A stretch of 64,000 nt of DNA from Heliocidaris erythrogramma (Eukaryota; Echinodermata; Echinoidea; Camarodonta; Echinometridae), in assembly GCA_025617745.1 (NCBI GenBank), contig CM046870.1:29469927-29533926 (forward strand). The letters run 5' to 3'. This document shows positions 8,301-50,883 of this stretch, piece by piece. Every line of letters starts with the position of its first letter. The stretch's first letter is position 1. Under the pieces are notes generated by a model. It did no database searches, was not told the DNA's origin, and saw only the letters and a list, made by a program, of their open reading frames with translations. A program made the position numbers and the translations under genes.

Positions 8301-10770
8301 TAGTACTAGTAGTAGTAGTAGTGGTAGTGTAATAAGTAATAGTATCATAATTATCTTAAATTATTATTTTCTGATGAGGTTAAAACCCCCGAAATAGGGT
8401 ATTTGACCCACAGGACGAGAAGGGGACCGCATTGAAAAGGTGAGCTTGGAAAACTAGCGATTAACAAGAAGCAGTGTCCTGACGCCGCAATCATTAATAT
8501 AATCAAGGAGTTCTGAGACAAGTCCTTGATATAATATAGTACATGCCCACTCTCGTAGGGGTACTGCTGGACCATTTTAAAGAGGCGCGCTGGAGTGTCT
8601 TATACCAAAGTCGCTGACAGCTTAGTTACAAAATTTCCCAACATGCAAAAATCTTGAATGAATAAAAAGGTACCCTGATTTTCATATTTGCCATCAAGCG
8701 CATCAAGTTTTTTAATGGAGTTGTCACTTCCCATAATACACCAGAGTCGCCCATGGCCTGTACTCAAGAAGGAGAGAAAGGTGTTAGAGTTATACTGCTG
8801 AGTGGTGTACAAAATAATTTTTTTTATCTTGTTTTCATTCCCAAGTTTGAGAACAACATGGAAGTACTGTAACATTATCTGAACTTCTCGTGAAATGCTC
8901 TTATCAAATGACAAAATAATATAACTCTTTGAGGGCAAAAGATTTTGGCCAGATTTTGGCCGGTCAGATATTTTTTTTTAATCTCTACTCACTGCTCTTT
9001 TTGTTTGTGATAGTCAACAAGATATAAAAGTTGTGTCCTACTTTTGATGTTTTCAATAACTCAAAAAGCAGTATTCAATCATATCATCCTTCTTTCCTCC
9101 AAGATCAACACTTCAGAACAGCTTCTACAGAGTTAATTTCAAATGTAATTCCACCTTGAATGCTGAACATAACCTTTGTGAAATCTCCACAGCAAGTATT
9201 GTGGAAAAGTGATTAATCTTTTAAGGGATAGGCAAAGTGGGTTTGAGGAACGGACCATATCCTATAACTATGACACCATGCTTCTATTGACCCATTTTCA
9301 AATTCATTTGCTGGCTTCATGTCTGAGTAACCTACTGCAGCCGGCTTGAGTCGGTTTTACGGTGGATCCTGTCACACAGAAATCCGCCCGTAGATGGCGT
9401 AAATATTCCCTTTTGAATCAAACGACAAACATCCTGAAAAGTACACCAAAATAAAGCAAACCAGAATCTGTCATGAATACGCCCTTGGGACAGACTTTAA
9501 AAGGGGAAGGTTTAGGATGTGAAGCATGTTTTTGTGGACTCTTTTGCCTCAAAATGTGTTCTCAATAATTTATATGACATTTGGACTGAATAATGTTGGC
9601 ATGGATGTGGGGCCATTTTGAGCGATAAGAATGGAAAAGCATTGAATTAAAGAAAGCACTATCTGGCAAGTTTACTGGAACTATTGCAGGAGACGAATTT
9701 TTTTTAGTGTTGAGCCGGATGTTCGAAAAATTTTTAAGAGCTTGTGTCGTTATTAACATTCATTATCTGTATTTGGATTATTTTTAATGTACTGCATACC
9801 AAGACTTTGGCCTCCAGTTGGTCAAAACTGCGGGCATGAAAGGATTTTTAAGCACTCTTCAATGATTTCCAGAATAAATTTTGTTAAAATTCAAAGATAT
9901 GTATCTCAAAGAATTTTTTCACTCCAAACCCCCTATATAAAAGCACTTTTATCATCCATTGCTAGATTATCTATTGAAATCAATAAAACATACATACGAA
10001 ACATCAGACCAAACGTTTCACATCTATCAAAAATTCAAGGTATTCAGTATTTCATACATTTGCTTATTCTTATCCAAAAATTATAGGAATATTCTAGTGG
10101 TTCATGTTTATCCCTACTTCGTCCGTACTGATTGTTCTTTTAAAAATATATTTGCTTTGCCTTTAACGCATAGAATAAAGTCATCATGCTATTATTAACA
10201 CTATACTGTTACTCTCGATCTGTTTGATTCTGTTCAGCATTTCCGACGTTCGTTGCAGCCACTTGGAAAATACAAGCTTCCTTAAAAATAAGAAATAACT
10301 CTGCGCTTCACCCACGTAAGACCTTAGTCAACATTCTGTCATGCTTAGTAAAGTGAAAAATCAAGTCTATTTATGTTACATTAATGTCATTTGCAAGGAC
10401 ATGGAAAGTCACAAATCGAAAAGTTTGCTTGTATTTCGATGCAAGTGACTTAGACCATATTAGGTGTGGAATATAGGTCGACATAGCGCCCCACTACCTA
10501 TAAGGACAGAATAATTGCATTTGAAGAACCATCTAGTATAGGTCCATGGAAGAACTCAGTTCCAAAAGGTACTACATCCAGAAATCCAAGTTCTGAGAAA
10601 AGCACGATTTTCGAATTATTGTCAGTTGGAATGATACTTTGGCCGATTGTATTAATGTATGATACAAGTGTGAAACAACGCTTAAAAATCTAAGTGCGCG
10701 GATTTATTTCTAATGAATATATTATATTTTTTTGTGTGTGGAACCGAAATCTGTCATACTGTTACAAATG
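8301..10770. other. gene-free stretch
   Basis: No recognisable gene. A 112-codon minus-strand frame at 8600-8938 has no family signature, splice context or promoter and is left uncalled. The one structured item is the imperfect palindrome at 8503-8529, listed separately. Confidence 0.45.
8503..8529. repeat. imperfect 27-bp palindrome, relative of the 28.1-kb micro-palindrome
   Basis: TCAAGGAGTT and AAGTCCTTGA pair at nine of ten positions around a seven-base centre. On the minus strand it is flanked by TTATAT on both sides, exactly as at 28.1 kb. A third relative lies at 19620. Confidence 0.6.
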
Positions 10771-11536
10771 CAGGGACGGTATTCTGAGATTCATTTTATC
10801 TCAGATAAAATCTGAGATTTTAAGTCAGTGAAATAAAATACCCTTAAAATATTTTTAAATCGGTATTCTGAGAACCATTTCAGCAAGATTTTATCTCATC
10901 TAAGACACGCCCATTTATGATGCCTTAACCAATAACTAATGTCGTTAAATTTCACTTTCACCATGCTCAGCCAATAGAATTGCTCTCTGCCAGTCTTTTG
11001 GGCAAGAGAGCGCGAATGCGCTATTTTTACAATTTTTCAATACTCGGGCATCAAAGCGCAATCGCGCTTTTTGCTAGGATTTCATGAAAACGACTAGGGT
11101 ACTTTCCGAGGTTTTAGAATACCATCACAAGCATTATTGCAAGTGTGATATTAGTTGGCAAAAATCTTGTAATAGAATTCGATAATCATATGAGAATGTT
11201 GCTTGAGAAATTAGTCAGTACTCAGTATCTTTTTGTTTATTTTGATCGCACGACTAGCATTATATTTGTCCAAATATATCGCACTCAACGTGTATCCTAG
11301 AGATAAAATAGCCCCTACCCTATTTTAAGTTTTATTTTATCTTTCCCACAAATATGATTGGCGTAAGCGTTTAAAGCTGTGCGTATCATGCCTGCAACAT
11401 GGATAGGCACGCAAGAGGTAGGAGATGGAGATAAAAAATTATGAGTTAAAATCCGAGATAAAATGTGGTCTCGGAATACAAAAAAGATAAAATAAAACAT
11501 TTTAGAGATAAAATGATGCTCAGAATACCACCCCTG
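10771..11536. mobile_element. MITE-like element with CAGGG...CCCTG inverted ends
   Basis: The left end CAGGGACGGTATTCTGAGAT and the right end, read on the other strand as CAGGGGTGGTATTCTGAGCA, match across about 32 bases and continue into ATTTTATCTC. The left-end motif recurs at about 10861, so that end is partly duplicated. CAGGG ends resemble hAT-type elements, but I see no clear 8-base target duplication. There is no coding capacity. Its right two-thirds are included in the tandem unit that follows. Confidence 0.65.
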
Positions 11537-11909
11537 GCCTTCAATAATTGGTTAGTGCTCAGCCGGGTTTGTTACAACTTCATAAAGCATTATCCTAAAA
11601 GAGATGCAATGCATTATTGCAGTGGTTCCATGCAGTCTCCTCATTTTCTTTGAAATGACTAGGGTACTTTCCGAGGTTTTAGAATACCATCACAAGCATT
11701 ATTGCAAGTGTGATATTAGTTGGCAAAAATCTTGTAATAGAATTCGATAATCATATGAGAATGTTGCTTGAGAAATTAGTCAGGACTCAGTATCTTTTTG
11801 TTTATTTTGATCGCACGACTAGCATTATATTTGTCCAAATATATCGCACTCAACGTGTATCCTAGAGATAAAATAGCCCCTACCCTATTTTAACCCTTTG
11901 GAGACGACG

Positions 11910-11970
11910 GGCTTCTATACAGAAGCCGAGCGAGGTGCTCAGTCTGTGATGGAGGGCTTCTACAGAAGCC
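11910..11970. repeat. paired subterminal hairpins of the piggyBac-like element
   Basis: GGCTTCTATACAGAAGCC at 11910-11927 and GGCTTCTACAGAAGCC at 11955-11970 are two near-perfect palindromes, both followed by GAG, only 16 bases inside the left end. The right end lacks them. Their place suggests transposase-binding sites, which is an inference. Confidence 0.7.
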
Positions 11971-13154
11971 GAGATTTATGCCTAATATGTTGACAAAGTT
12001 TTCCAGCTAACTATCCGCTCTTATGCGCTAAAATTCTTAGTAGTATCATGTAGATATATTCATTCACAATACCCGTTAAAAAAATATGAGGTTACGTTTC
12101 AACTTTACCCGAAATTCGTGTTTGGGATCGTAAATCTTGTATACATACCGTACGCGTACGCGTCCGCTTCGATCATGTTATTTCCATAGTCTAGAGCATA
12201 GACGTATTATAGATTTACTAGACGGAAAGCAGCACGCGCGGAAATCATTACGCGAATGGAATTAGGCCACGCCTCTTGGGACCATTAGAAAGGACGATAA
12301 GCACCCGTTATCGCCGTGATATCGATAATAGCTGTTGCATTATTAATTTTTCTTGCGCTTGTCATTTTATTGTGAGACTTTGATTGGATGCTATGTTATG
12401 AATATGTATCTATTTCGATAGTATCGATCAGGGTTATGTTAATATTTTTGACCTCAAATTCGTCACTCAAGATCAATTAATTATGCAGATTATATGCAAT
12501 GACGTCACCCGCACGAAATGAGAGATTTTAGTTCAAAAGTACAAGGTGAGTAGAGCTCAAATTGCGAGTAAACTATATAATTTAATTCATTAATAACAAT
12601 TAGTTGTACTATTCTAGGTGATCTATAATAATTTCTCTACAATTTAAAAGGATTGACAAGAGTTGTGTTGAAAAAGAACTGAAACAATTTTCTCTCGAAA
12701 TTACAGTTCTAAATTTATCGTCGAGAGGTAGTTTGACACGGAGATGGCTGTCCTCACACGCTGCGGCTCATGACAGCTACCCAGGCAGTCCCGGGTCAGT
12801 TCCAGCCACCGGCGCGGTGGCTACAGCGTCAAAAATGCAGTGCATGCAAGCAAGAAATATTGGATCTAAGTAGGCCTAAATCTAGATCTAGATATAACGT
12901 TAGTCAACTCTTTGAATTATGATAGACTATTGCATAAGTTTTTCCTCATGTTGTCCATCTATATGCTGCACACAAGTGTATTCATTAGTCCAACTTGGCC
13001 TTGGAATATCTAACGTACGGTTAGAATAGATTTGGAGACTGAGTGTGACTGTGCGACTGTATGGTGGGATCTACTCTTTTCAGCTCACAATAATTGTTGA
13101 CATTTTATTCCATAAACCGAAGTCTGAAGAATAGTACCGTATCTTGAGTAGATG

Positions 13155-13585
13155 TAGACCGAAAATTCTGTCTCTCGTTCGGTAGCTCTTCACTTAGAGA
13201 CAGAAGCGCTCCATACACTCGCCTGTGCAAACCGAATGCACATTTACTTACACACTATAACAGTTGAATACGGCTGGAAGATTTTCAAACGGAGAAAACC
13301 TTGGACCCTGAATTACCTGAAAAACGAGCAATAAAAGGAATAACAGTCAAATTGGTAAGTTGAACATGTTCGTTTAAGTATAGAGCCTAGGCCTAATCTA
13401 TTTAATTTACACAAATATTGTTAAAATGTGAATATTACGATTTTTAAAAACGACATGCCTACTGCCTCTCGGCTGTCAGTGAGTTTGCACAGGCGAGTGA
13501 ATGGAGCGTTTCTGTCTCTAATTAGTGAAGGGCCGACCCTATCCAAATAAGAGGCTAACGAACGAGAGACAGAATTTTCGGTCTA
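13155..13585. mobile_element. 431-bp element with 27-bp terminal inverted repeats and 9-bp target duplication (Mutator-like)
   Basis: GAGTAGATG at 13146-13154 is repeated at 13586-13594. Inside it, 27 bases at 13155-13181, starting TAGACCGAAAATTC, are the exact reverse complement of the last 27 bases. The inverted arms continue to about 13230 and 13477 (AGAGACAGAA, CGCTCCAT, CTCGCCTGTGCAAAC), with one ~24-base length difference. Long terminal repeats with a 9-base duplication fit the Mutator superfamily. There is no coding sequence. It is nested in the 8-kb piggyBac-like element. Confidence 0.8.
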
Positions 13586-15409
13586 GAGTAGATGTAGACT
13601 CACTTAGCTAGGCCTAGGGCTAAAGCTGTGTTTGGGAACGAATTCAAAGTAACCATGTTTGATAAGAAATTATGATGGATGTAGACTCTTTTCAACTTCA
13701 CTTTCAATTCATGCCTGACTGTGTTTTTGTTCTATTATCATACTTGGTTCAGTTCATGCCATTTGGTCAATTAAACTGACTAAGTTAAATATTAGTCCGA
13801 TAGACTGTTTTTTTTTAATGGGGGGGGGGGGGGGGGTAGGCAAATGTATTTTGGGCAAAACTTCAGTCTGGTGTAAATCAAGCCAGTTTATGAATCCCTT
13901 TTCAAAATTTCAGACACACTATAAGTTGCAGAGGTTGTTTCTTTTTCTTTCCAAGAAACTTATAAAGCTTGAATGCACCTTAATTAATAAATAAAAAGAC
14001 AGCTGATGAATATTGAAATTTTACCTATTACAAATAATGGATTGGAATTTACAAATGTATTTGCGTGATAAAAATAATTATTATCAATGTAACTATGACA
14101 TGTATCAAGAAAGCCCCCCCCCCCCCCCCCAAAAAAAAACGCCAAGAAGTTACAACTGTTTTCTTTTTCTTTTTTTTACAACAGATCAAAATGGAAAGGA
14201 ACCCAAGAAGTGTTATTCAAACATTGCGACAACTGTTGACCGTACATGATGAAGCAGAAATTTAGCCCCCCTAAATTACAGGTAAGTTTACAGAACATTT
14301 TCATTCATCTTTCAAGAGTATTGTATATGCTTACTACGTAAGTCAAATCAATTTAACAGGAAACAAGGAAAATAACTATAAAAGCAATCAGGGCTTCCAG
14401 GGGTCCCTAAAAGTGTTCGTTAAAATCATATTACACATACCCTCACTAGTTCCCATTGTTATTTTGATAGCTTGTCTTTAAACTATTAAAACATTATTTG
14501 AAACCATTACTAACAAAGCCCACCATTGTGTGTGAGCATGGAGAAGAAGATTGCACATTTATTCACAATACATTCTATGAAAACGGTTTCTTTTGAGCTG
14601 TAATCTATGATCTAAATTAGATGTACATTTCTACGTGTATCTAGATGTTTAAGAAGATCGAAAATATAAGAATTAGTGGAGTACAATTTTTTCTGCGAAA
14701 TATATCTTGTGAACCTCTAAATTACTTTCATTTACTTATAAATTTATTTATTTATCCTTTTTTTACACAGCGTGATTCTTTACAATGGATGGTGAAGGAA
14801 TATTGAGATACACAATCAGGAGAGATGAACAAAGAGCAAATATAATAGTACTGACCTGCTCAAGCTTGGAGAGGTAGGCCTATACTGTGTTAAATGTGGT
14901 AATCCCCCCCCCCCCCCCACAACAAAAAAGTTTTTTTTTTAATACATGAATATAAAAAATATATAATATATATAATATATCAATAGTACACAACTTGTAG
15001 AGGAGGAAGCAAGTTATTTGAAATAATTGTAATTCCATTCCCCTCTGACCTTTAAAAGAAGAATTTTTAGTCAAATATGGGAATTTCTTTCAAAGGATAG
15101 ATCATTCCCATTTTCATGCTTACAAAAGAACTTGGTTTTAATGAATGTGGGTAAAATAGCTTTTTATCAAGCTATATTTCCTCTGTTTCAGTCATGCATA
15201 TACGCATATCTGGCACATTGCAGTCCTGTCATATTGTGTATGACCTTAGTAGTTTTTAATTTGTTCTATTTTCTCTTTTCATTCAACAGACTTACGGTAT
15301 ACCACTACAGCTCTTCATAGACATCTACCTTATCATGATACCATGTGCTTCAGATGCCAGCAGTGGATGTTCAAAAAACTGTTCAAGGAATAAACTCATA
15401 TAATTTAGC

Positions 15410-15790
15410 AGGAAAGTCCACCCTGATAAGTTGGTTATAAAAGAAGCAGAAAAATTAAAGAAACAGATCAGTGGAGGTTTGAGCTCCTCTCCCATTTGCT
15501 CCATACAGAAAATTTCATAAATTTCCATTTTCTTAGTTTCTGATGAAGGAGTAGGTTTTTTCCTACAGGTTTTGTAAACAAAAAATTGTATGAGCAATGA
15601 TTATATATCTAAGGTGCATGCCAAGTATGTTTGAATATTTTCTTTAGAGAAAATGGAAATTAATGATTTTTGGGGTACAGTGCAAATGGGAGAGCAGCTC
15701 ACAAGATACGACACAGAGTTGCCAATTTATCTTTGATTTATTACAACTTCAAAAAATCAAACCTAGATTTGAATTATGTTGGTGACCAGC
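15410..15790. mobile_element. foldback element, copy 1
   Basis: It begins AGGAAAGTCCACCCTG, as does the copy at 58198. The two share interior blocks (CCTCTCCCATTTGCTC, GCAATGATTATAT, AGAGAAAATGGAAATT). Within the copy, CTCCTCTCCCATTTGCTC and GCAAATGGGAGAGCAG are inverted relative to each other. The right terminus is eroded, so the end coordinate is approximate. Confidence 0.65.
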
Positions 15791-17454
15791 AACAGTATAA
15801 TAGAATGAAGCGGTTGTCATGAATATTTCTTGAAAACTGTTGAAAAAACCCTGAATATTCATTCAATTATATGTGATGTGAAAATTTAGACTTCTGCAAA
15901 GATTTTCATTATTATTTTTTGTTTAATTATAAACTTGTTATTTTAATTGATATTTATTGTTATTAAATAGACAACAATAACAACAACAACAAGATTTAGT
16001 TTATCTCTCTTATGTTAAGGAGATGAAAAGTCATCTAGTTGCCTTAAATATTTACATTTTTTTTTAGAGCTTGTCAAATTCAAAATTCTCCTTTCAGTGA
16101 TAATGTTCATGTGATATAGTTTATGTATGAGAGGACTCAAAGTGGGAGGGTTCCATAACTAGAAATGTGAAATTTTAAAATTTCTGTGAAAGGTAAGCTA
16201 GAGTGACCTTTATACTAAAAGGAATGAGAAAGATACAAAATGAGAGTAAAAGCAGTGGTATCGCTGGAGGGGGTAGGGGTGGGTGGAGGCAGTGAGAGAA
16301 GGCTTGCAGCCTATGCCCCCTTGATACAAAGTGGCATACCTTCAGTATACAACTCCAAGATTGTACCCCCCTTTTTCTTTTTCAACTTGTCAGAGAATTT
16401 TCTGCAATGTGTGCCCCATCTTTTACAAAATCCTGGATGCACCCCTAAGGTGGTGGAGGGTAATACACCTTAATATTTGTAATTTTCAAACTGTCGGTAT
16501 TTTGGCATGTCAAAAAATATATAAAACTAATAGAACTTCCATTTTCTTTTTTCATTATTGAAAATTTGTGAGAATTTTTTTTTTCGGCACGGTTAGTATT
16601 GCCCCACCTCTCCCCATTCAAAATGCTCTAGCGACACCCCTGCTTGAAATGAAAGGAAGAGTGAAGACAATAAGCTCTGACTGGAATGGTTAATCATAAG
16701 TAGAAGTAAATGGAATGTATTGTAAGACATGTGATTGAGTGGTGACTTACAGGCATGAAAGCTGGAAAGGAATGGCAACATAAATTTTACTTACAAATGC
16801 AAAGTAAACGTTAATATAGAACATATACTTCTTCCTGGTAATTTGATTATTCCTGACAAATTCCTGACAAAAAAATCCCTTAAAAAAGAGAATAAACGTA
16901 CACTTTTATTTAATTGCCAACATAAAAACAAAATTACATTAACATCAAGTCTAAATAAAATGGTACAAAAAAACCTCAATTAACTAAAGGACCCCACCGC
17001 CACACCCCAAATGAAGATTATCCTTCCTATTAAGAAAACCATCCCTGAAAAAAATCTTACTTTGAAAGATAACTTCTTTGTTTTTTATTCATTATGCATG
17101 TATTATTTATGTATTTATTTATCATTATACTTAACGCATATTTAATGAATACATTCAACAAGAAAAGAGACTTTTGCCACTGGCGACGTGTCAAATACTT
17201 CACATTATTTTTACATTATCTTTGTTCATGATTACATTTGATTCGGTCCCGTCCGGTTACATTTTTAAGCTTTATTTACTTGTTTACATATTTGCAAAGA
17301 TTTTGATTTGGAGATCGATTACAATTAAAGTGCATTGACCGAGCCCCGTCTGTCATAATTAGAAATTGCCGTCGCTGATTCGCCGAATCTGTTGCGTTGA
17401 AGCAATGAATACATTACCATAAATGCATATATTACGGAATTTGACCTTTCTTAC

Positions 17455-17648
17455 TGCGCATGCCCCAAGCTGATGTGCGAATTTGTTTTCATACCACATA
17501 CAAACACACGCTACTCTCGGGAGCATCTTACAAAATGAATCATGCATTTACGCTCATGAATTATGCAACGGTGCTTATCGGGCCTTCTAATGGACCCCGA
17601 CAAGATGGCGGAGCTTTAGGGGCCTTGTCTAGAGCTCCGATCACGTGA
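17455..17648. promoter_or_regulatory. promoter-like cluster: NRF1-, YY1- and E-box-type sites
   Basis: A CpG-richer island inside the 8-kb element has TGCGCATGC at 17455-17463 (NRF1-like), CAAGATGGCGG at 17601-17611 (YY1-like) and the palindromic E-box TCACGTGA at 17641-17648. These sites often occur together in TATA-less promoters of housekeeping genes. I found no convincing exon next to it. A ~29-base block here (17572-17600) recurs inverted at 12277-12306. Confidence 0.35.
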
Positions 17649-18071
17649 TATCATAGCGTTCAAAGCGCCGATCGATCTTGACAAAAAGCTACAGCTACGT
17701 TATGTGCGTATTCACTACATTTACACTCCCGACTTCGATCCTGACGTTGTTTACTTATTTATATATTATCTAAGGCATTTTTCATCAACTGATTTGAAAT
17801 AAGCACATGATTTGTTGTTTCTCGTAGGAATTAAATTGCTGTGCACCCATCAACTATACTACCTTTGATTGGTTGTTTATTAATTTTTAAAAATGTATTT
17901 ATATTTTAATGTTTTTAGGAAAGTGTGTACTAGATGAGAGCTATGGAAGATATAGAGCCAAAGAGAGAGAGAGAGCCCCTCCGCCTCCAATCCATCCCGG
18001 TCAATGACAAGAAATTGCCTCCCTGTTCCAAACATCATGTGCTTTGATAACTTGACGTTGCTCCTTATAAC

Positions 18072-18396
18072 CCAAGTTCATAAGATAAAATAAAAGGAGC
18101 TTGCTCAAGGAATATATCAATTGAAATTGGCCAATTCAGCCCTTCATTCATGAATGAACCATTCTACTCTTTTCCGAAATCCAAGTTCATAAAATAAAAT
18201 AAAAGGAGCTTGGTCAAGGGTTATTGAAATTTAAATTGGCCAATTCAGCGCTTCATTGATGAATGAACCATTCACTCTTTTCTAAAACCCAAGTTAATAA
18301 AATAAAATAAAATAAAAGGAGCTTGGTAAAGGATTATATCAACTGAAATTGGCAAATTCAGCGCTTCATTCACGAATTTCAATCAACCTTTTCAAA
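18072..18396 (+). repeat. 109-bp tandem repeat, three copies
   Basis: Units start at 18072, 18181 and 18289 (CCAAGTT, ATAAAATAAAA, GGAGCTTGGTCAAGG, AAATTGGCCAATTCAGCGC). Each carries a palindrome-like TTCATTCATGAATGAA block, partly lost in the third. The divergence looks moderate. Confidence 0.85.
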
Positions 18397-18610
18397 ATGA
18401 AACGCTTTCTCAGTTCCGTGGACTGCTAACAAGCATTAGCATTTTGAAAGAAGAGGAAGTATACGTAGGTCGACCTACTTAATACATGTATACAAGAATG
18501 AACTGTAAACATGCGCTGCCATGCTATCAATATGATAAAACTACAACCCCAAGAATTACGGGAACCCAATTATTAATGCTCATTTTGAAATTCACAGTAC
18601 AGCCCGTTAA

Positions 18611-18654
18611 ATGGTTATCCTGATGACTGGGATTTGTGTCAAAAGGATAACCAT
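18611..18654. repeat. hairpin with 11-bp perfect arms
   Basis: ATGGTTATCCT at 18611-18621 is the exact reverse complement of AGGATAACCAT at 18644-18654, with a 22-base loop. No poly-T or gene context suggests a function. Confidence 0.6.
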
Positions 18655-18728
18655 AATATTGCATATGCTTTGAAAGCTTGAATTTCATGCATCTTTATTT
18701 TATTCCCGATTCCGTCATCTGCTGTAAA

Positions 18729-18729
18729 A

Positions 18730-18773
<44 letters not shown>
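18729..18773. repeat. (TAA)n microsatellite
   Basis: About fifteen uninterrupted ATA/TAA units, within the 8-kb element. Confidence 0.95.
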
Positions 18774-19619
18774 GGGGGAAGGCGGGCTGTTATTGCAGAT
18801 ATTGCAACATCACTATAAAGATTGTTGTCATTGCCCCCCCCCCCCCCCATCGCTGTTATTTTTTAAAAACATATTTCTTTATCGTTTTAGTTTGTTTATG
18901 ATTCTTGTCATTATCCAACTCAACTCTTGTCTTTCTGTTTCAACTTTTATTTTCCTCGAAACATACAATTACTACACTCTCGATATCATGCTCCTTTCTG
19001 ATGTTCTCTTTATTTTCAAATCAATCAAACTCTGATAAATAGCCACATCCTTTTATAATAAAAAATTGCATGCAATGCGGAAATAAAACGCACTGAAACA
19101 AAGTTTTAATTGCACGAGCTTCCTGACGAGTTCAGAGAGAGAGAGAGAAAGCAGGCGGCATTGAGATGTGATACTTTTTTTTTGTTCCACTCACTGTCAT
19201 TCATTTAGCTTTTTCCCATTACAAACAATATGTGTACATGATTTTAATAAATTGTTTTATTGATAAAACAACTACATAGGGGAAAAAGCGTTGAAAGAGA
19301 GATGGATAGATAGAGAAATAAACGAATGAAGCAGGAGAAATAAAACAAATAGTTATGACAAATCATGAGAAATGTATTCGAAAGTAAATAGGATTATTTT
19401 TGTCTTATTGAATAAATAATGTTCATCTGAAAAAACAGTTCCCTGATACATGTGATATAGAAAGCATTTAGAGTGATAATGTCACAATGCTGGTCAGAAT
19501 ACGACTACAAAACTTAGTCGGAAACACGTGTAAAATGCAGGGCGCAATGCATGACTTGGCAGATAATCGCCCGAGCATTAGCAGACGACAATGGGGTCCA
19601 ATGAATGGGGTATCGATCG

Positions 19620-19646
19620 AACCAAGGAGTTATCACAGACCTTGAT
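19620..19646. repeat. partial copy of the micro-palindrome
   Basis: CAAGGAGTTATCACAGA matches the 28.1-kb copy for 17 bases and is followed by CCTTGAT. The five bases TAACT of the right arm are missing. It lies about 330 bases inside the right end of the piggyBac-like element. Confidence 0.6.
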
Positions 19647-20471
19647 CTAACCGCGTGTGCGACGGCGTTTACGCAATTTGTATTGTAAGTGTACTGAAAA
19701 GGAAGGAAGCGAAGCTTCAACAAATAAGACGGCTTTTCCCCTGTAAAATAACAAACCTTATTTTTTGTTTCGATAAACAAAACTTATATTTTTAGAAGGA
19801 GAAAAGTCTGACCTTTCATGTTTACATTTACTAAAAATTACGAAAATGACCGAGTGAGGTACAATGAGCAATCAAAGTAGAAAGCACCTCCAAATTTCCC
19901 ATTACCGGCAATGTAACCGAAATCGCTCCGTCACAGGGAGAACAATCGCTGTGCGCGGGCTCGCACTGAAAGGGTTAAGTTTTATTTTATCTTTCGCACA
20001 AATATGATTGGCGTAAGCGTTTAAAGCTGTGCGTATCATGCCTGCAACATGGATAGGCACGCAAGAGGTAGGAGATTGAGATAAAAAATTATGAGTTAAA
20101 ATCCGAGATAAAATGTGGTCTCGGAATACAAAAAGATAAAAGAAAACATTTTAGAGATAAAATGATGCTCAGAATACCACCCCTGGCCTTCAATAATTGG
20201 TTAGTGCTCAGCCGGGTTTGTTACAACTTCACATTATCCTAAAAGAGTTGCAATGCATTATTGCAGTGGTTCCATGCAGTCTCCTCATTTTCTTTGAAAT
20301 GACTAGGGTACTTTCCGAGGTTTTAGAATACCATCACAAGCATTATTGCAAGTGTGATATTAGTTGGCAAAAATCTTGTAATAGAATTCGATAATCATAT
20401 GGGAATGTTGCTTGAGAAATTAGTCAGTACTCAGTTTCTTTTTGTTTATTTTGATCGCACGACTAGCATTA

Positions 20472-20945
20472 TGGCTTGAGTGCCCAAGTCTGCGCAGTGC
20501 CCATGTCTGCGCACACGCGTAACTGCGCGATTCTGATAAAACAAAACACGCAACGAACACAAACTTTTCATCTTTATCATAGCGATAGGTATTCATGCAA
20601 AAAACGGGTCAAAATAATGAAAAAGGGTCCTATTTCAGACATTTTATTCACAAGCCTTAAAATGTTGTCTTTCACGTCAAAACTCCCGAACTGCGTGTAA
20701 AATGAATGAGTGCGCAGACATGGGCACCATTGTTTTTTTCAATGTTGAATGAAGTTGAAATGACACGACCACCGTTTCTTGTGAAAATGGCATTGTTCTT
20801 GCTCTAAATTTGATGAGATTTTTTGCAGACTTACTCTTTCGAATATCAGGAATAGTATAAAATTAAGCTTTAGAGGAATATTAAAGAAATTCTTGTTCAT
20901 TTTCAGATCAAAACCTTAGATGCGCAGACATGGGGCTCCCCATCA
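20472..20945. mobile_element. 474-bp MITE with TA target duplication
   Basis: It is flanked by TA at 20470-20471 and 20946-20947, where the other two tandem units have a single TA. Its 25-base ends align without gaps (TGGCTTGAGTGCCCAAGTCT and, on the other strand, TGATGGGGAGCCCCATGTCT), sharing CCCA(A/T)GTCTGCGCA. The block CCATGTCTGCGCA or its complement also occurs near 20500 and 20710. TA duplication suggests a Tc1/mariner-type partner. No transposase frame is present. Confidence 0.8.
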
Positions 20946-21422
20946 TATATTTTTCCAAATATATCGCACTCAACGTGTATCCTAGAGATAAAATAGCCCC
21001 TACCCTATTTTAAGTTTTACTTTATCTTTCGCACAAATATGATTGGCGTAAGCGTTTAAAGCTGTGCGTATCATGCGTGCAACATGGATAGGCACGCAAG
21101 AGGTAGGAGATTGAGATAAAATATGAGATAAAACCCGAGATAAAATGTGGTCTCGGAATACAAAAAGATAAAATAAAAAATTTTAGAGATAAAATGATGC
21201 TCAGAATACCACCCCTGGTCTTCAATAATTGGTTAGTGCTCAGCCGGGTTTGTTACAACTTCACATTATCCTAAAAGAGATGCAATGCATTATTGCAGTG
21301 GTTCCATGCAGTCTCCTCATTTTCTTTGAAATCTTGCATTAGTGTTCCTCACTCGTTTGAAATTTAGAGATAATTTGTGTTGGTTGTTGTTTTGGCAGGG
21401 ACTTTGGAATGTGTTGACATCT

Positions 21423-21560
21423 GGGGAGCGTTTCATCAAGCTTTTTGTCAGTGATTTATACCGACAACTGTTATAAGCTACTGAAATCCTTGCATCTGAT
21501 TGGCTGAGAGCAAATTAGTCGGTGAAAATCACTGACAAAATGCTTGATGAAACGCTCCCC
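21423..21560. mobile_element. 138-bp palindromic MITE, copy 1
   Basis: GGGGAGCGTTTCATCAAGC at the left is matched by GCTTGATGAAACGCTCCCC at the right, and TTTTTGTCAGTGATTT by AAAATCACTGACAAAA. The core TCTGATTGGCTGAGAGC and TGTTATAAGCTACTGAAATC recurs, inverted, in the element at 40829, which shows one family. Confidence 0.8.
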
Positions 21561-22174
21561 TGGAAAGCTTTCAACGGTTCATCCTTACTTGTCTGTAATT
21601 TTAGTCGATTTGACATTTGAAGAACCAAGAAAAGTTCTTTCCGTTGTGTTTGTAGATTCACAGGTTGCATGCAAAGATGTATGATGCCTTTACCTAATAC
21701 CGGCCTCTTAACGATGTTTCCAACGACTACGGCAAAGATTCTTCATGAAACGTAATGAAAATTCATCAGACTATTACCCAAATACTGGGGAACAAGATCC
21801 AGGTACTAACGAGCGATAATACTTGCGCGTTCTTGTAGAAATGACGTTGCAATAGAGTCATCTCATTTTACGCATAGAGGGAGAAGTGCGTTTTAATTAC
21901 CGACCCCTGCACATAGTCAATGGCAATTTATGAAAAGAGATTATTTTAATGAAAATATGAAAAATTAACAAAAAATTGATAATAATTACGTTTTTATTCC
22001 TCATCTTGCTCTAATTTGGCTGTTCTCAACGTTGCTAGGCATTCTACGCGTACTCCCATGGGTTGATTTGCAAGACGCGCGCTAGATGCCATGATACGCT
22101 TAATGGTCGCTTAATGACATTAAATGACATAAAATGACGCTTAATGACATTAAAGCTTAATGTCTAAGCTTTTG
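21561..22174. other. gene-free stretch with a small direct repeat
   Basis: No gene seen. Just before the LINE, TTAATGACATTAAATGACAT at 22111 is partly repeated about 30 bases on at 22141, giving a CGC-TTAATGACATTAA duplication. Confidence 0.5.
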
Positions 22175-22194
22175 ACTCTGTAAAAAGACACTTA

Positions 22195-23679
22195 TTGTGG
22201 TCAAAAATGCTCAAGTATAACATTAATGGCAAAATTCTCAAAGTGATTCAGAATATGTATGATAGCGCAAAATCTTATGTTATGTATAATGGACAAAGGT
22301 CCGAGCTCTTTGAGTGTAATATAGGAGTAAGACAAGGAGATAATCTATCCCCTCTACTGTTTGCAATCTTTATTAATGATTTTGAAACAACATTGAGAGA
22401 AATTTGCAATGGTGTTAAACTACTTCCGAGTGACCTTAAGGAAAAACTCCTTGAGAATAATGTATATGTATATCTTAACTTATTTACTTTATTATACGCT
22501 GATGACACCATTGTTTTAGCAGAATCTGAAAATGATCTCCAATACGCATTAAATGTCGTCGAAAAATACTGTAACGATTGGTCGTTGAATATAAATGTAC
22601 AAAAAACTAAAATAGTCGTGTTCTCTCGTGGTAAAATCCGAAATACACCCATCATTAGTTTCAAAAATCAACAACTAGAAGTTGTAGATGAGTATACATA
22701 TCTTGGTACAGTTCTCAATTATAACAATCGGTTTTCCAAAGCCAGAAACAAACAAATAACCCAAGCACAAAAGGCATTGTTTAGTTTACGAGCAAAATCA
22801 AACAAATTGGATTTACCAGTCGATATTGAATTAGAATTATTTGAAAAATTAGTACTTCCAATTTTGTTGTATGGAAGTGAGCTGTGGGGGCTTGACAGTA
22901 GTCTACAAGATGTTGAGAAGTTTCAAACTGGTTATTATAAACGTCTGCTTCATGTGAGTAAATTTACGGCAAACTGCATGACCTATGGAGAACTCGGCAA
23001 ACACAGTATTAAGAAACTAATTGAGTGCAGGATGCTAAACTTTTGGATGAGAATAATCCTAAGCAAATCATCGAAATTGTCCCATACTGTATATGATATT
23101 CTGAAAATAATGTTTGATCTGGATATTTATCAAAACCCATGGCTAATAAAAGTTAGGAATACATTGGATAAATTAGGTTTATCTTACCTTTGGTTAGATA
23201 ATCATTCAATAGATCCACGGTGGTTCAAAGCAACAATTAAAACACGTCTAGACGATATATATTCTCAAAATTGGCATGCTGAAATGTTTTGTAATTCGCT
23301 GTGCTTAAACTATCGCATATTCAAAGAAAATTGTCACTGTGAAATATCTCTTCTAAAATTGCCTTTCAAATATAGGATTACTTTAACGAAATTCCGCTGT
23401 GGAAACCACCGTCTACCAGTAGTATCTGGAAGATATGCAGGTATTGAACGATCACAAAGAACTTGCAATATCTGTGATACAACAAAGCTAGGTGATGAAT
23501 TCCATTACTTGTTTGAGTGCCCTGCATTTCTTAAAGAAAGAAACAAGTATATTGATGATTGCTATAAAAGCCGTCCAAATGCAATAAAAATGTACAAATT
23601 ATTCAATTCTCCCAAAATTTCAACATTAATAAACTTATCAAAATTTTGTAGCATCATAATGAATAAGTTCAAACAATAA
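22195..23679 (+). CDS. LINE reverse transcriptase, C-terminal 494 codons
   Basis: The frame encodes the core of a non-LTR reverse transcriptase, which copies its own RNA at a nicked chromosomal site. RQGDNLSPLLFAIFINDFE starts at residue 46 and the catalytic YADDT at 101-105. The thumb follows with EYTYLGTVLNY near 166-176 and PILLYGSELWGL near 222-233. A late zinc-knuckle-like motif, C424-X2-C427-X9-H437-X4-C442 (CNICDTTKLGDEFHYLFEC), precedes the stop. The ATG is arbitrary, since homology runs upstream to the truncation. The fingers and endonuclease are missing. No internal stop or frameshift is present, so the copy is fairly young. I cannot fix the clade; the decayed LINE at 32655 belongs to the same broad group. 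Confidence 0.88.
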   Translation: MWSKMLKYNINGKILKVIQNMYDSAKSYVMYNGQRSELFECNIGVRQGDNLSPLLFAIFINDFETTLREICNGVKLLPSDLKEKLLENNVYVYLNLFTLLYADDTIVLAESENDLQYALNVVEKYCNDWSLNINVQKTKIVVFSRGKIRNTPIISFKNQQLEVVDEYTYLGTVLNYNNRFSKARNKQITQAQKALFSLRAKSNKLDLPVDIELELFEKLVLPILLYGSELWGLDSSLQDVEKFQTGYYKRLLHVSKFTANCMTYGELGKHSIKKLIECRMLNFWMRIILSKSSKLSHTVYDILKIMFDLDIYQNPWLIKVRNTLDKLGLSYLWLDNHSIDPRWFKATIKTRLDDIYSQNWHAEMFCNSLCLNYRIFKENCHCEISLLKLPFKYRITLTKFRCGNHRLPVVSGRYAGIERSQRTCNICDTTKLGDEFHYLFECPAFLKERNKYIDDCYKSRPNAIKMYKLFNSPKISTLINLSKFCSIIMNKFKQ

Positions 23680-47100: not shown

Positions 47101-48432
47101 TCAACCGAACGTTGAAAACACAAAATATAGCCAAATTTCCTTTGATTCACAACAACTAATTCGGCTAAAAAATGAACTAAAAGCATACTGAAATAACTTG
47201 TCGGATGATTCGATTTTACTCACTGCCACGGAAACCTGTTAAAAACCTTTAAGATGAAATTGAAAATGTCATGATTTGTTACCCTTTGGTAACGGGTTTG
47301 CGGTCTCATGAATAATGGATGACTTCGTATTTGGGTACGTGGATGCTGAATAATTGAGACATTATGCATGGCGGCCATCATGGATGTACTCTTGGGAGAA
47401 GGGTAGTAGTTCACAGTATCTTAATTATTTGAGTGAAATTCGGAGAATTATCCTGAAGGAATTAGGCGATGCGTGTTTCCTTACCGCCATTTTCATACCC
47501 GTCACGCCAGCATGCTCCGAGCTTTGGCACCTTGCCTACATTAGCTCCTTCGATGTGCAAAGATGTTTTGGGTTTAGACAAGTAGTGTGGGGGATTTTAA
47601 CCCCTTCCAACCCCGACTACAATCCGTCCATATCTTACTTTTACGAAATAAAAAATAACATGCTTATAACCTAGTTATGATATAGAAATACTCCTTGTTG
47701 CTTGTATTCAAAAGGGTGTCGAAATGTTGCGTTTGAATCAAAATGCAATTTCTTATATTCCCCCGTTTTACAAAGTATTATAACCTGAGTTTTTGTTGCC
47801 CGTCGTTTTTTAAAAGACATATGCCCCTTCCCATTTGTCAAAATTTGACTGGGAGAGGGGGTTGTCATGAACATAAAGACATGTGCCCCTCCTCCACCCT
47901 TCCGAGAGTCTTGAAAGCCAAATATCCTCAAAACGATATTGCGCACAAAAAGGCACCAATTAAGTCTATTTATTACAAGCCACAAAGCCTGGAGCTTCAG
48001 CCCCAACCCCACACCCATCCCCACATTTTTGAATAGACACTTTTCATAATGCAAATATGCAGCAGACTTGCTTGTGCGTGCTCAGACTTCCCCCATCCCC
48101 AACCTTCTAACTTTTCAAAAACGCTCTGATGTCAACGGTTTATGCGAACGCGTCAAGATGATCCCTCTGAAGGAAGCATGAATATCTCACCTGTCAATAC
48201 ATATTAATTTTCCAATTACTCACTGTATGTATCACTGCCATGGTTGACAAGACAGGGAGCAACTGGACGATAAAGGTTAATGGCCAGAGAAGCATTACAA
48301 GGCGAGGTTAATGATGCAGCAAAGTTATAATCAATTGTGATAGAATAATAACAGATTATGATTAAACTGCAATTATCATATCTTGAGGAGCTCTTTTGCA
48401 ATCGAGGTGAAATTCTAAATTATTAAAGAAAA
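44136..48432. other. gene-free stretch
   Basis: No gene supported over 4.3 kb. An NRF1-like TGCGCATGCG at 45470-45479 and CATGGCGGCCATCATG at about 47368 are isolated promoter-type motifs. Confidence 0.45.
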
Positions 48433-50883
48433 GTGTATGGGATATATATCATGGGTGACTTCAATATTAACCTATTAAACATTGACATAGATGAAAAGGT
48501 GAAAGATTTTGTTGATCTTATGAACTCATATGGTCTATTTTCTTTAATTAATAAACCAACTCGTCTCACTTCTTCCTCTGCAACTTTAATTGACAACATA
48601 TTTACAAACTGTGTTAAAGACCATTTTAATTCAGGGATTTTTTGCTCTGATTTTTCTGATCACATGCCAATTTTTGCTATCAATAAAGGTGACTCCATTG
48701 CTGCCGATGACAAACGTAAAATATTTCGACGTGTTATCAGTGAAGATAAGATTGATGTTTTCAAGCAAGAACTATCTAGCATTGATTGGTCCTGTATATA
48801 TGAATTGCATGATGCTAATGACTCGTATGACTTGTTTATTAATACATTCTCAACTTTGTATGATTTGCATTTTCCTTTAGTTGAAATGAAGGGTAAGAAG
48901 AAATGTAGAAAACCCTGGATTACCCCAGGTCTCCTGAAATCAATCAATCAAAAAAATAAGTTGTATTATATATATGTAAAAAATCGAAGTGAGGTAAATC
49001 GGAAAAAGTATACTGATCATAAAAATCTGCTGATTAATATTGTCCGCCAAAGTAAACGGAGGTATTATGATGATGTATTTCAGTCAACTCAATATGACAT
49101 TCGGAAGACATGGTCTCACATAAATGAATTGTTAGGGAAAAGGAAACAAACATCACTTCCAAATGCAATGTACCATAATGATTTATCGTTAACGTCTAAT
49201 CAACAAAAGGCTGAATATTTTAATAAATATTTTATTAACTTGCCTTCTAAGATAAGCAACGATATACCTGTTGTCCAAACATCCTTTAGGGAATATTTGT
49301 CTGTACAACCTCACTCTTCCTCAATGTATCTAAGTCCAACGTCGCCATATGAAATTGTGAAATTTGCATCAACTCTAAATCCATCAAAGTCATGTGGCTC
49401 AGATGACATTTCTCCAAAGGTAGTTAAACTTTGCATACAGAGCATTGTTGATCCCTTATCGTATATCTTCAATAAGTCTTTGTCACAAGGTATTGTTCCA
49501 CAAAAATTAAAGCTAGCAAAGGTAATTCCTGTTTATAAAAAGAATGATTGCAAATGTATAGAAAACTATCGACCAATTGCTTTGTTGCCTATATTCTCAA
49601 AGATTCTTGAAAAAATTGTGTATAAAAGATTGGATGATTATCTTCAATTGCAAAATGTCTTGATTCCCCAGCAATTTGGATTTCGAAAAAATAGTTCTAC
49701 AAGCATGGGCGTATTGAATTTAGTCAATACTGTTATTAATGCCATCGATAGGGGAAAGTATTGTATTGGTGTATTTTTAGATTTGTCAAAGGCATTTGAC
49801 ACTATTGATCATATCATTCTCTTAAGTAAGTTAGAGCATTATGGTATCCGTGGCGTAGCTTTAGCGTGGTTTGAAAATTACCTACACAATAGACAACAAT
49901 TTGTGGTGGTTAATGGAGTAAAATCACAACTGGGGAAAGTTAAATGTGGTGTACCGCAGGGCTCAGTCCTTGGTCCCTTGTTGTTTCTGATTTACATTAA
50001 TGACATAATAAATTCGTCTGGTTTGTTTACTTATTCACTTTTTGCTGACGACACTTGCTTACTTGCTCATCATAAAAATATGTTATCTTTAATCACCTCT
50101 GTAAATAACGAAATTAGGAACACGTTTGAATGGTTTTGTTGTAATAAATTGTTACTAAATACAAGCAAATCACAATATGTTGTCTTCAGAACAAGAGGTA
50201 AAAAAATCCCTGATAATATTCCTCCATTGATAATAGGTGGAAATCACATTGACCGAAGCCAAAACGTACGATTTCTTGGTGTCTTAGTAGATGATCATTT
50301 GTCATGGAAAGATCACCTCAATCATGTATGTACTAAAGTTTCTCGAAGCGTTGGTGTGATCTCCAAATTGCGCTTTTATCTACCAAAAGAAACCTTAATT
50401 ACTTTGTATAATGCTATAGTTATGCCTCATCTGATGTATTGTAATGTTGCATGGGGAAATACATATAAAATTCATATAAATAAGTTAGTAGTTCTTCAGA
50501 AAAAAGTTGTGAGATATATTACTCATTCAGACTATAAAAGTCCAAGTTTACCATTGTTTATTCACCTACATATTTTACCTTTTGAAAGATTGGTTACGTT
50601 AAATTGCTTGATTTTCATGTTTAAAACATTGAATGCACATAATTCATTCTTGAAGAATGCTTTTGTTTTAAATTCTACCATTCATACTCACAATACACGC
50701 CAAAGTAATTTTATTCATCAGCCTCTTGCGAGAACACAAATTGGGTTACAGTCGTTCATAACGGTTTGTATCAAGGAATGGAATAACTTGCCCTTGGAAA
50801 TTAGGTCAGCTACAACATTGTCTAGATTTAAACATATGTGTCGTAAATATCTTGATGAAATATTGAAAACCAATGCTAATTAG
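48433..50883 (+). CDS. LINE ORF2-type protein: partial AP endonuclease plus reverse transcriptase
   Basis: Residues 7-80 are the C-terminal part of an AP-type endonuclease: MGDFNINLL with the catalytic-loop GDFN at 8-11, SATLIDNIFTN at about 49-59 and the active-site SDH at 75-77. After a linker, the reverse transcriptase shows LAKVIPVYKK near 361-370, ENYRPIALLPIFSKILEK near 377-393, QQFGFRKN near 413-420, FLDLSKAFDTIDH near 448-460 and GVPQGSVLGPLLFLIYINDI near 506-525. The catalytic FADD is at 537-540. The C-terminal region (ITHSDYKSPSLPLFIHLHIL; HTHNTRQSNF) is typical of the CR1/L2/Jockey group. The N-terminal endonuclease half is missing, so it cannot retrotranspose alone. The true start lies in the lost 5' part. 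Confidence 0.92.
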   Translation: MYGIYIMGDFNINLLNIDIDEKVKDFVDLMNSYGLFSLINKPTRLTSSSATLIDNIFTNCVKDHFNSGIFCSDFSDHMPIFAINKGDSIAADDKRKIFRRVISEDKIDVFKQELSSIDWSCIYELHDANDSYDLFINTFSTLYDLHFPLVEMKGKKKCRKPWITPGLLKSINQKNKLYYIYVKNRSEVNRKKYTDHKNLLINIVRQSKRRYYDDVFQSTQYDIRKTWSHINELLGKRKQTSLPNAMYHNDLSLTSNQQKAEYFNKYFINLPSKISNDIPVVQTSFREYLSVQPHSSSMYLSPTSPYEIVKFASTLNPSKSCGSDDISPKVVKLCIQSIVDPLSYIFNKSLSQGIVPQKLKLAKVIPVYKKNDCKCIENYRPIALLPIFSKILEKIVYKRLDDYLQLQNVLIPQQFGFRKNSSTSMGVLNLVNTVINAIDRGKYCIGVFLDLSKAFDTIDHIILLSKLEHYGIRGVALAWFENYLHNRQQFVVVNGVKSQLGKVKCGVPQGSVLGPLLFLIYINDIINSSGLFTYSLFADDTCLLAHHKNMLSLITSVNNEIRNTFEWFCCNKLLLNTSKSQYVVFRTRGKKIPDNIPPLIIGGNHIDRSQNVRFLGVLVDDHLSWKDHLNHVCTKVSRSVGVISKLRFYLPKETLITLYNAIVMPHLMYCNVAWGNTYKIHINKLVVLQKKVVRYITHSDYKSPSLPLFIHLHILPFERLVTLNCLIFMFKTLNAHNSFLKNAFVLNSTIHTHNTRQSNFIHQPLARTQIGLQSFITVCIKEWNNLPLEIRSATTLSRFKHMCRKYLDEILKTNAN

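Follow-up and report, generated by a model that had tools for sequence, protein, structure and literature searches.

The window, a stretch of 64,000 nucleotides of Heliocidaris erythrogramma DNA (C18:29469927-29533926, from a genome of 1.06 Gb in 26 contigs), contains an array of three tandem units at 11092-21332 whose edges can be read directly (Table 1). The repeat unit is composed of the final 442 bp of a 760-bp MITE together with 123 bp of right flank, and upstream of unit 1 the sequence runs on into the remainder of the MITE. Without inserts and with each target site counted once, units 1, 2 and 3 are 565, 559 and 557 bp long, and they lie exactly where the initial annotation had placed three tandem units of ~560 bp. 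Unit 1 and the joined halves of units 2 and 3 align end to end, with 5 substitutions in 559 compared positions between units 1 and 2, 11 in 556 between units 1 and 3, and 12 in 556 between units 2 and 3. An insert of 8,081 bp divides unit 2 at a duplicated TTAA (11890-11893 and 19975-19978), and one of 474 bp divides unit 3 at a duplicated TA (20470-20471 and 20946-20947), both as first described, and each insertion site is intact in sister units. The array and its insertions are real to the base and not a product of chance. Their outer junctions are repeated in a second copy of the region, described below, which speaks against local misassembly of these junctions.

Units 2 and 3 are without the left part of the MITE, yet both carry the identical 123-bp right flank. 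This combination indicates tandem duplication and not transposition, and it rules out the units as independent transposon insertions.

Table 1. Features of the array and its insertions, in window positions.
Feature	Position	Strand	Remarks
MITE, 760 bp, interspersed family	10774..11533	+	3′-most 442 bp supply the bulk of the repeat unit
Unit 1, intact	11092..11656	+	MITE 3′ part (11092-11533) and 123 bp right flank; 565 bp
Unit 2, left part, TTAA at its end	11657..11893	+	
Composite TTAA insertion, 8,081 bp	11894..19974	.	2,643-bp piggyBac-like element and nested insertion
Nested later insertion, 5,429 bp	12198..17626	.	first base possibly C at 12197
Three ~110-bp tandem repeats within the TTAA element	18069..18397	.	
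Unit 2, right part, TTAA at its start	19975..20300	+	unit 2 totals 559 bp, one TTAA kept
Unit 3, left part, TA at its end	20301..20471	+	
474-bp MITE inserted at TA	20472..20945	.	
Unit 3, right part, TA at its start	20946..21332	+	unit 3 totals 557 bp, one TA kept

Relatives of the 760-bp MITE gave at least 41 matches, at least 39 of them outside the array, with 40 scored out of 546 first-look candidates, and their best pieces are 91-96% identical. The family alignment starts at 10766-10777 in 12 of 15 loci (L005 as two pieces) and stops at 11534-11543 in 14 of 15. Divergence from the family majority is 1.2-3.4% in 13 copies and 14% in one copy that is truncated on the left (L048). Target triplets were compared for 15 loci, of which 14 were displayed (L051 was dropped by the anchor) and 11 had a readable left end. 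Identical 3-bp sequences flank both sides of 8 of these 11 copies (L002 if one extra G is allowed), with CWG in five of the eight and CAT in three; the remaining three are mismatched, as is the window copy, whose flanks read CAG (10771-10773) and CTG (11534-11536). TIRs of family copies start with GGG (GGGCGGTATTC... and ...GAATACCACCC), and the terminus of the window MITE reads GGACGG. As characterized in the part of PMC4482050 drawn on here, the NuwaI group of PHIS DNA transposons likewise has TIRs starting with GGG, and has CWG target triplets. The likeness is one of ends and, in part, of targets, the 760-bp element being a non-coding MITE, and the CAT-flanked and mismatched copies depart from it. 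In L008 and L045 one MITE sits inside the right end of another family member, with CAG in CTCAGAATACC as the site, which suggests that copies insert into ends of their own family.

The 8,081 bp in unit 2 had been taken for one element, a description that has to be revised. A single 8-kb element is ruled out by an inner site that is empty both in the second copy, where the positions equivalent to 12197 and 17627 adjoin and the TTAA element is continuous at 2,635 bp, and in a TTAA-family locus on contig C15 (L028), which is continuous at this site, with a 9-base overlap between its two matching pieces. What lies in unit 2 is a 2,643-bp TTAA element with a 5.43-kb nested insertion. The TTAA element has the ends CCCTTT...AAAGGG (left, CCCTTTGGAG; right, on the other strand, CCCTTTCAGT), and in all 6 family loci examined, representing 4 distinct sites, the right end is followed by TTAA; no left end was recovered in these 6 loci. 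A TTAA target and ends starting with CCCTT are features of the piggyBac superfamily in the portion of PMC10813416 consulted, and the element shares both, but its two ends, compared by eye, agree perfectly over CCCTTT only, and no transposase was detected in it. None of its frames exceeds 117 aa, the one of that length being of low complexity, and the three shorter frames searched against Pfam for a piggyBac transposase had no match. We therefore call the element piggyBac-like only, and decayed or intron-split transposase pieces may be present in it.

Target duplications of the inner insert are at 12189-12197 and 17627-17635 (GTCTAGAG(C)), and their length is given as 8-9 bp because the C at 12197 may already belong to the insert. 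Among its relatives, L054 is full-length, matches at 98.4% over 5,470 columns with 24 mismatches, and is flanked by GGCTACATC, maybe with a preceding T, a duplication of 9, perhaps 10, bp. This locus alone was used for the relative's target duplication; a further one (L055) is incomplete in the fetched stretch and has an extra ~350 bp. Of the best 40 matches to a 613-bp probe, 38 cover ~304 bp at the start of the inner element, at 98-100%, and so many near-identical relatives suggest that the element was recently active. The only candidate for terminal inverted repeats in the insert is an inverted repeat of 28 bp (86%), which lies 80 and 29 bp inside the ends. Thirty-three frames of at least 55 aa overlap the interval of the composite insert, and seven were searched against Pfam: six had no match, and one fell far below the family cut-off. 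Four of the seven belong to the inner insert, including the one below the cut-off, and were searched for a transposase; the longest stop-to-stop frame in the insert is 95 aa, and intron-split or decayed pieces of a transposase could still be contained in it. Target duplications of Mutator-like and hAT-like elements are in the range of 8-9 bp, a size that the inner insert shares.

Relatives of the 474-bp MITE, the second copy aside, are 95-97% identical among the best 40 matches. Of 6 family loci examined, 5 are flanked by TA at both ends (L014 is not), and these five represent four distinct sites, L015 and L016 sharing flanks. The termini share GTCTGCGCA within an imperfect inverted repeat of ~25 bp, as judged by eye, and the TA target duplication is shared with Tc1/mariner-like MITEs. 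The parts of the array resemble known kinds of non-coding DNA transposon, to which we assign superfamily names by inference. By open frames and Pfam, nothing in them appears to point to coding or selection, and we propose no function.

A second copy of the region is present in the same contig and assembly, ~510 kb from the window. Window positions 33-45120 align, with gaps, to 50 kb fetched 0.51 Mb further along the contig; a 1.1-kb probe from the right window end had two matches only in the search, the second at 94% identity, and 6 kb lying mostly left of the window are matched by the second copy in pieces. Divergence between the copies is mosaic (window 1-45120 versus C18:29.98-30.02 Mb), amounting to 0.15-0.62% in 8 of 12 bins and to 1.25-1.79% substitutions in the other 4, and the copies also differ by many indels. 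No N occurs in the window or in the fetched 50 kb. The segment 7387-8169 matches the second copy in reverse orientation as well as within the surrounding forward alignments, and may represent a small inversion of one copy relative to the other, or else an inverted repeat.

The second copy has both outer insertions at the same sites and is without the inner insert. It has two units only, and window positions 11080-11328 and 11645-11893 both map to 29991503-29991751. Between its left unit and window unit 2 there is 1 substitution in 559; the two versions of unit 3 are separated by 5 in 554, as many as separate units 1 and 2 in the window. The TTAA element differs by 9 substitutions in 2,631 positions and 4 indels, and the 474-bp element by 1 substitution in 474.

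Judged by sequence, the second copy may be either a paralogue or an uncollapsed haplotype. With modest confidence we hold that the copies are two haplotypes of one locus kept side by side, unit 1 and the 5.43-kb insert being polymorphic within the individual. Their low, mosaic divergence with many indels is of the kind that haplotypes would give, the right-end probe finds these two places only, and two TTAA-family loci that lie 0.81 Mb from each other on C21 are ~99% alike through their flanks as well, which lends plausibility to haplotypes. The 94% identity of the second probe match is less easily accommodated, and the C15 pair L015/L016, which has common flanks and lies 20.8 Mb apart, is hard to fit. 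That pair, and a C16 pair with no match beyond ~1 kb from the element, indicate that the C21 pattern is not the only one. A recent large segmental duplication that produced true paralogues, with paralogue-specific changes, is a serious possibility, if somewhat short of probable: both copies are on one contig, their match extends from sequence left of the window as far as the right window end, with no N in either stretch, and the C15 pair points to true duplications within this assembly, but the mosaic divergence and the C21 pair fit haplotypes as well. It seems doubtful that the whole of a further proposal holds, namely that the inner insert is a multi-copy, non-coding element of unsettled superfamily, recently or still mobile, and that its presence and the copy number of the array segregate within one individual.

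To order the events within the array, derived states were polarised by 14 copies of the MITE family. Derived characters common to units 1 and 2 are at 301, 346-348 (an insertion), 355 and 407; units 2 and 3 have one in common, at 255, and units 1 and 3 have none. Differences in the flank, at 447, 492-496 and 513, cannot be polarised, and by state 513 groups units 1 and 3. The initial annotation had implied a triplication in a single step, and the shared derived sites, though few, instead favour a dimer followed by a trimer. A dimer and one unequal crossover between 255 and 301 explain all five polarised characters, and the array probably grew in this stepwise manner. The placement of the crossover depends on one discordant site, which would be at the left edge of the five by chance in one case in five. 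Gene conversion between neighbouring units is common, and triplication in a single step followed by small conversions between units 1 and 2 would also account for site 255, which alone among the five characters groups units 2 and 3. The other four, however, group units 1 and 2 over ~105 bp, and the crossover covers all five without conversion; we consider the single step unlikely.

The history that we propose would begin with insertion of the 760-bp MITE. A 565-bp segment made up of its 3′ part and right flank would then have been tandemly duplicated to give a dimer, and an unequal crossover between the two units, between 255 and 301, would have generated a trimer, the middle unit of which resembles unit 3 in its left portion and unit 1 in its right. 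The 2,643-bp piggyBac-like element would have entered TTAA in unit 2 and the 474-bp MITE TA in unit 3, either of them first. At a later stage the region would have existed as two copies or haplotypes, of which the window copy gained the 5.43-kb element within the TTAA element. Unit 1 would have been lost from the other copy, recombination between units 1 and 2 being the simplest route. Taken as a whole, this history, a passive record of transposition and recombination, appears to us likely.

The claimed order of MITE, array and then the two outer insertions survives: the MITE came first, and the insertion sites are intact in sister units. Both sites (at approximately unit positions 170 for TA and 235 for TTAA) are in the left part of unit 2. 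Under the crossover model, a TA element already in unit 3 would have been placed in unit 2 as well, and its absence there supports the same order, with this crossover-based support coming from the one discordant site. Describing the insertions as datable was apt for their relative order and not for absolute dates, as unit comparisons give 1-13 substitutions without a rate. Precise excision of the TTAA element is a property of piggyBac, so that unit 1 could look as if it had never been inserted into, which counts against the proposed history.

Loss of unit 1 from the second copy is a step that we infer from derived G residues at 128 and 402, which are present in window unit 2 and in unit 2 of the second copy and not in unit 1. 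The left unit of the second copy thus groups with unit 2, unit 1 would have split off before the copies diverged, and its absence from the second copy would be a loss. The two-unit array is disfavoured as the ancestral state by these two shared sites, and also because one exchange between two interrupted units cannot give an intact left unit. Position 29 has a pattern that a simple history does not explain: all window units and unit 3 of the second copy have T, and unit 2 of the second copy and 14 of 14 family copies have G. Since unit 3 differs between the copies as much as units 1 and 2 differ from each other, distances alone do not date the split of units 1 and 2 before that of the copies, and this equality and position 29 together keep the loss of unit 1 from being a firm claim.

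Chronologies of nested transposons have been read by 'interruption analysis', 'genome-wide defragmentation', REANNOTATE and TinT (PMC2517846, PMC2672092, PMC3014933, PMC5657132), and here likewise younger elements interrupt older ones and give a relative order. Relative to the sections of those papers considered, this locus adds empty sites from sister units and from a second copy. Tandem arrays and satellites arising from pieces of transposons are reported in excerpts of PMC12628747 and PMC6947457; here too the segment repeated in head-to-tail fashion terminates inside a transposon, but with three units only the array is not a satellite. As a nest of DNA transposons the locus is ordinary, its empty-site evidence is unusually complete, and it answers no open question. 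It offers a compact worked example in which outer and nested insertion boundaries are readable against empty sites in the same genome, and a warning that one large 'element' can prove to be two; the second copy is a useful warning of duplicated or uncollapsed sequence in this assembly.

Several other features lie to the right of the array. An inverted repeat at 21423-21560, just beyond its edge, has 43-nt arms that are 93% complementary and a 52-nt spacer. About 0.8 kb to the right of the array, a 503-aa frame (22168-23679, + strand) opens inside an RVT_1 domain (E 4.4e-24) and is probably a truncated or frame-broken LINE-type element. A further stop-to-stop frame of 818 aa at 48427-50883 (+ strand) matches RVT_1 with E 4.9e-34 and looks like a LINE-type retrotransposon.
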